Assembly (NCBI GenBank): GCA_030637895.1 | Contig: DAOWFP010000114.1 | Span: 1-32,886 of the forward strand | Length of the DNA stretch: 32,886 nt | From: Bacteroidota bacterium | GTDB taxonomy: Bacteria; Bacteroidota; Bacteroidia; Bacteroidales; GCA-2748055 | Direction of reading: 5' to 3' | In this document: positions 3,107 to 17,060 of the stretch, piece by piece | How positions within the stretch are numbered: position 1 is the stretch's first letter | How the letters are laid out: each line of letters begins with the position of its first letter | Translations under genes and position numbers: made by a program | The notes under the pieces: model-generated | Database searches by the model: none | What the model saw: the letters and a program-made list of their open reading frames with translations, nothing else | What the model was told of the DNA's origin: nothing

Positions 3107-3179
3107 TGACCTCAGGAAGACTCGAACTCCCACCATGGGAACCGGAATCCCACGTTCTATCCAGTTAAACTATGAGGCC
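3107..3179 (-). tRNA. tRNA-Arg (anticodon CCG)
   Basis: Manual cloverleaf on the minus strand: acceptor GGCCTCA/TGAGGTC, D-arm GTTT/GAAC, anticodon stem TGGGA/TCCCA with loop TTCCGGT, T-arm GGGAG-TTCGAGT-CTTCC, discriminator A. 73 nt, no encoded CCA immediately after it. Confidence 0.92.
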
Positions 3180-16834: not shown

Positions 16835-16878
16835 AAGAAATTGACCTATTTTTTGCGCCCACAAAGATAGTTATTCCC

Positions 16879-17009
16879 CGGGATAAATGTGTAAATCCCA
16901 TTTCACTCTTCAGGATATTGTCCTCGTCGCTTAAAATGCCACTTCGTGCCATTTGTAGGCTCCTCATTCAATATCCTTTCTAGTTTATGGACCTTCCCGA
17001 TTTATCCCG
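16879..17009. repeat. Nested palindromic (inverted-repeat) intergenic element
   Basis: Three nested arm pairs: CGGGATAAAT (16879-16888)/ATTTATCCCG (17000-17009); AGGATATTG (16912-16920)/CAATATCCT (16969-16977); AAATGcCAC-TTC-GTGcCATTT (16934-16954, one mismatch). Confidence 0.7.
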
Positions 17010-17021
17010 TCGAAAAGACAG

Positions 17022-17060
17022 GAAAAGAAAAGAGCCTGTTCCCGAAAGAACAAGCTCTTG
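17022..17060 (-). terminator. Rho-independent terminator downstream of groEL
   Basis: Minus strand AAGAGC-TTGTTC-TTTCGG-GAACAG-GCTCTTTTCTTTT. Confidence 0.75.

Follow-up and report, generated by a model that had tools for sequence, protein, structure and literature searches.

Genes and features of the groEL-lepA junction

The stretch of DNA analyzed here (termed the window; 32,886 nucleotides) contains groEL and lepA, both of which are encoded on the minus strand and confirmed by NCBIfam, and between which lies a palindromic element. The groEL intrinsic terminator, which consists of a 13-pair stem and a T-rich tail, occupies positions 17030-17059 (minus strand), and the lepA start codon positions 16834-16832, so that the element falls between the terminator and lepA, just where the preliminary description had placed it. 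Downstream of the element (16862-16869, minus strand) is the sequence TATCTTTG, which, from established knowledge of Bacteroidota promoters of the TAnnTTTG type, we take to be the -7 box of a predicted lepA promoter; this box or a near variant occurs a short way before the lepA start within the host family (among those members for which the region upstream of lepA was printed in the sense-strand direction). Because, in the direction of transcription, the groEL terminator precedes the element and the predicted lepA promoter follows it, the element lies outside both predicted transcripts. A tRNA gene (3107-3179, minus strand) is the only above-threshold Rfam match in the window.

The element was described as three nested inverted repeats with one shared centre (at about 16944), and the coordinates, when checked in the sequence, bear this out. 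The outer arms CGGGATAAAT (16879-16888) and ATTTATCCCG (17000-17009), as read on the plus strand, are centred on 16944; the middle arms AGGATATTG (16912-16920) and CAATATCCT (16969-16977) on 16944.5; and the inner repeat AAATGCCAC-TTC-GTGCCATTT (16934-16954), which has 8 pairs and one C/C mismatch, on 16944. The first of the outer arms overlaps the stretch just upstream of the lepA -7 box. When positions 16868-17020 are folded as RNA, the minus strand yields -47.9 kcal/mol and its dinucleotide shuffles -29.65 (sd 3.38), giving a z of -5.40 (0/200); the plus strand yields a z of -5.36 and the minus strand, with DNA parameters, a z of -4.31 (0/200). In the proposed comparison with shuffled sequence, the element thus folds clearly better.

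Structure of the repeat

Two covariance models were used: R1, built from six copies with the window copy among the seeds, and R2, built from 89 copies. The sense strand of the repeat is the minus strand of the window, where the repeat core of 76 nt spans 16905-16980 (92.5 bits and E 1.2e-16 with R1, for which the window copy is a seed; 81.7 bits with R2). The unit folds as a single strand of about 76 nt, in which three helices stack on one another, their stems variable but covarying, around a conserved unpaired module. Helix 1, which is seen both in the RNA fold and in the pairing across 125 copies, joins a 5' arm at 16969-16977 (AGGATATTG on the minus strand) to a 3' arm at 16912-16920 (CAATATCCT on the minus strand). 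The module (GCC-U.. / UUCA-GC) is divided into a 5' half, GAGGAGCCTAC (16955-16965, minus strand), which contributes helix 2 with a tandem G.A followed by CCT and is defined by conservation over 89 copies, and a 3' half, AGCGACGAGG (16922-16931, minus strand), which completes helix 2 and is defined by conservation and by pairing across copies. Helix 3 (16934-16954, minus strand) ends in a C-GAA-G triloop (loop 16943-16945) of a class common among the copies. The outermost repeat lies outside this conserved core, and the outer arms extend only some of the copies. A small ORF across the element (ATGAGGAGC...) was also considered and rejected: its ATG is not retained in G013 or G003.

A dispersed family of copies

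The preliminary description had proposed searching the genome and its relatives for further copies. Using blastn, only the window copy is found in the host genome (at E 0.001), while sister species have copies both at the lepA site (G013 and G003) and at other places (G009, G015 and G017). The structural models reach further: R1 yields about 109 matches in 16 of 18 host-genus genomes and none in ten genomes from other genera of the host family, and R2 yields five copies in the host genome (G000) and 85 matches in six genomes of one second genus, which belongs to another family of the same order. With stricter filters, R2 finds no copy in a further 193 genomes of the order, nor are any found in 395 genomes of the phylum. 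Copy numbers (5 in G000, 17 in the G015 regions and 34 in G040) are to be read in light of the facts that the host genome is 59% complete, that the genomes searched are drafts and MAGs (named relatives of the host being sediment-type MAGs), and that the E-values of home-made models are rough. Plasmids and phages, when searched by blastn, yield none; a phage origin was rejected because the structural model does not accept the four exact pattern matches seen in viral contigs, which fall within or close to coding frames of phages. The element is one copy of an apparently undescribed, scattered family of hairpin-forming repeats shared by two genera of uncultured Bacteroidota.

This distribution bears on the suggestion that the element is a structured 5' leader acting in cis on lepA. 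Homologous copies do precede lepA in both G013 and G003, as such a leader would require; however, the groEL-lepA junctions of several close relatives (G002, G005 and G007) lack the element, with no R2 match in L025, L036 or L039, and more than 100 copies, that is, most of them, occur away from lepA. Moreover, the element cannot well be a leader of lepA because the predicted -7 box conserved across the family separates it from the start codon. The leader reading is therefore scarcely credible. The lepA copy is instead an old resident common to three species, for which no role in lepA expression is claimed here. The suggestion of a small RNA gene likewise finds no support, as the element has no promoter-like site, sits between a terminator and the next promoter, and matches nothing in Rfam at the gathering score, either in the window or at 20 copy loci.

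Selective constraint on the fold

Covariation among homologues, another check that had been proposed, is strong. Over 125 distinct copies, 90.4% of stem cells are paired, versus 63.1% for shuffled copies, and 727 cells are changed on both sides, versus 201 shuffled (0/500); such double-sided changes occur in all 22 pairs, and sliding the partners abolishes the signal. Within helix 1, 96% of cells are paired. Because the copies were found using a structural model, which favours paired copies, the second-genus rows, which played no part in model building, were also considered alone: 91.6% of their cells are paired versus 69.5% shuffled, with 123 versus 34 double changes. Contrasting with these variable stems, the unpaired CC-U, A, UU-A and G hardly vary (95-100% conservation, with the CC and T of the module at 97% over 89 copies), while in helix 2 about 20 copies have tandem G.A/A.G where most others have Watson-Crick pairs.

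Three further features concern the strand that folds and its ends. First, G.T pairs far outnumber A.C pairs within the stems of the copies (86 versus 14), which suggests that it is the sense strand (i.e., the minus strand of the window) that folds. Second, a C-GNA-G triloop ends 57 of the 122 copies with a resolvable hairpin; these loops belong to the d(GCGAAGC) class of mini-hairpins, which are unusually stable as DNA. (The exceptional stability of such short hairpins has been discussed; PMC10527192.) Third, the 5' foot reads G[AG]A, and 56 of 126 copies carry a GNAG motif at their 3' foot.

The outer flanks, too, pair with their own partners better than with swapped ones (-9.55 versus -7.45 kcal/mol; 0/5000 permutations), and paired runs 10 to 12 bp long occur in the copies from the window, G004 and G017. 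Palindrome growth by template switching could be an alternative source of outer-arm pairing, though it would leave the retained unpaired module unexplained.

Placement and spread

Based on approximate gene calls (the longest open frames), the copies chiefly have neighbours that converge (43) or run in tandem (40); few stand between divergent genes (2) or inside a gene (3). They are also polar: a stop codon is at most 20 nt away from the 3' end in 36 of 66 cases, and from the 5' end in 3 of 60 (Mann-Whitney p 9e-11). Close pairs are mostly inverted, with their 5' ends facing each other (19 of 24, a count that leaves out the G014 and G011 arrays and comes from 25 rows in which one locus was entered twice). 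G014 and G011 contain a G+C-rich subfamily (L087, L141, L142, L145 and L146) whose near-identical copies are arrayed about 20-100 nt apart, with the orientation alternating.

That the family has spread follows from the near-identical copies found at unrelated places: those of G014 and G011 are 95-99% alike, whereas their flanks are unrelated. Conversely, the ung, gmk, dxs and lepA sites are common to several species, and there the stems have changed and yet still pair, which points to both age and constraint in place; copies of the family are old and their flanks diverged. The junction between dxs and aldehyde dehydrogenase holds the element in genera of two families, with intermediate genera lacking it (L067, L074, L092, L115, L180 and L183). 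The retention of pairing at shared sites while the stems change suggests, furthermore, a host function rather than merely a mobile relic.

One form that such a function might take is that of an RNA element at the 3' ends of genes, serving in read-through transcripts either to block exonucleases or to insulate the neighbouring gene against antisense transcription. The strong, polar placement at stop codons, the covariation seen where different species share a site (ung, gmk and lepA) and the tolerance of G.T in the sense strand all speak for this, and indeed a transcribed RNA would fit G.T tolerance and a position close to the ends of genes just as well. Against it, the window copy is set off from both genes, by the groEL terminator on one side and the predicted lepA promoter on the other; the reverse complement is what the nearest gene's mRNA contains, and there each tolerated G.T becomes an A.C; the element is missing from most of the homologous intergenic regions; and a T5 run follows the fold in just 8 of 124 copies (sense) or 12 of 122 (antisense). 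T runs near the element mostly point inward from the flanks (28 of 122 and 25 of 124), and because they so seldom follow it, the element is not an intrinsic terminator, a role that was rejected for this reason. On balance, a host-functional RNA element seems unlikely, though it keeps some weight.

Comparison with known systems

The placement of the copies, their inverted dimers and their closeness to stop codons are those reported for REP families (PMC3733652, PMC3116915). Like REPs and REPINs (BIMEs), the copies are dispersed extragenic palindromes, mostly between convergent or unidirectional genes, often in inverted pairs tens of bases apart and with ends touching stop codons. Unlike REPs, however, which are single hairpins of about 20-65 nt, the element has a core of 76 nt (up to about 130 nt in all), three helices and a conserved internal loop; it lacks a GT[AG]G or CGTC foot at its 5' side, having GNAG at its 3' foot instead; its stems vary freely with covariation; its 1-34 copies per genome are few for REPs; and no RAYT adjoins its copies, whereas REPs are moved by a TnpA-REP (RAYT). 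Because it lacks the GTAG/CGTC foot, the short length and the RAYT neighbour, the element is filed as REP-like rather than as a REP.

The earlier proposal of a REP- or MITE-like palindrome thus stands in its REP-like half, given the copies, covariation, inverted pairs and extragenic placement, and falls in its MITE half. A classical MITE, moved by a DDE transposase acting on conserved terminal inverted repeats, would likewise be palindromic, dispersed, non-coding and extragenic; here, however, the letters of the terminal arms vary among copies while their pairing is retained, and the conserved letters are internal, which makes this origin highly improbable.

Two other systems involve folded single strands. 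Integron attC sites likewise conserve structure while their stem letters vary, and are recognized as a folded single strand; unlike attC, the element has no RYYYAAC/GTTRRRY boxes in its consensus and forms no cassette arrays, standing instead between housekeeping genes. The subterminal hairpins of IS200/IS605 elements are folded single-strand DNA as well, and such elements occur in both genera that carry the repeat; yet the Y1 genes of both genera belong to IS200/IS605-type elements or encode a class 2.1 protein, and no copy of the repeat is found at their ends.

A further parallel may be that of Bacteroidetes TnpA-REP subclass 2.6, which one survey describes as flanked by 'atypical secondary structures' without a GT[AG]G foot and with copies elsewhere in the genome (PMC6006769). 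As described there, these structures resemble the element in phylum, in the missing foot and in having copies across the genome, and they could be its relatives or even identical to it, the comparison being one of descriptions rather than of sequences. They differ in that no subclass 2.6 transposase is recognized in the host genus and in that R2 finds nothing near 11 Y1 loci of sister genera.

Search for a mobilizing enzyme

Among 28 Y1 loci of both genera (in draft genomes), a Y1/HuH transposase beside a copy was found in one chance-like case, and this single copy lies outside the homologous IS block. G003, which is 98% complete, carries copies and has no Y1 match at all. A recurring neighbour protein family was also sought as a mobilizer and rejected: recurrence is confined to homologous sites (dxs/aldehyde dehydrogenase, ung, gmk and sugar isomerase), with no common mobile gene. 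Nor is there a lagging-strand bias as judged by GC skew (22 of 51 positive in three genome groups).

Sister genera (L233, L235, L237, L239, L240, L241 and L242) contain Y1 genes with a subclass-1.2 type motif (Y--xQxxHH), and short, perfect palindromes (e.g., GCCACGAAGTGGC and CCGTGGGCTGTCGCCCACGG) cluster in the flanks of these genes, although PMC6006769 gives no REP for subclass 1.2.

Proposed nature of the element

The element is best explained, with reasonable though not full confidence, as belonging to a structured, REP/REPIN-like repeat dispersed outside genes, whose folded sense strand would be the acting form and which would have been spread by an enzyme that recognizes the fold. Its dispersal, its fold and its placement are directly observed. 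We infer that this strand acts as DNA rather than RNA, probably as single-stranded DNA, because the window copy lies outside the predicted transcripts, the C-GNA-G loops are stable as DNA, and G.T but not A.C is tolerated. A protein would read the folded single strand, and its existence and kind we likewise infer; the family would have spread in the manner of REPs through an enzyme comparable to the HuH transposases of REPs, which would recognize the fold and possibly has since been lost. Against this explanation count the absence of a Y1/HuH neighbour and of an orientation bias by GC skew, which an element acting on the lagging strand might show. So do the copy numbers, which are low for REPs, the pairing retained at shared sites, which suggests a host function, and the equally good fit of a transcribed RNA to G.T tolerance and gene-end placement. 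A less likely reading is that the family represents a new class of bacterial repeats recognized by their fold, with drifting, covarying stems, a retained C-GNA-G loop and G.A/CCU module, a constant polarity relative to stop codons, a non-RAYT protein handler and a host function at the 3' ends of genes.

REP-type repeats usually are recognized through their conserved letters and their RAYT gene. Here it is the folded shape that is preserved while the letters change, so that the family is nearly invisible to sequence search and conspicuous by its structure; hence, similar orphan families may be common. Its covariation at homologous sites and its fixed polarity at stop codons together lead to two testable claims, namely that selection maintains the fold where it stands and that some factor would read that fold.
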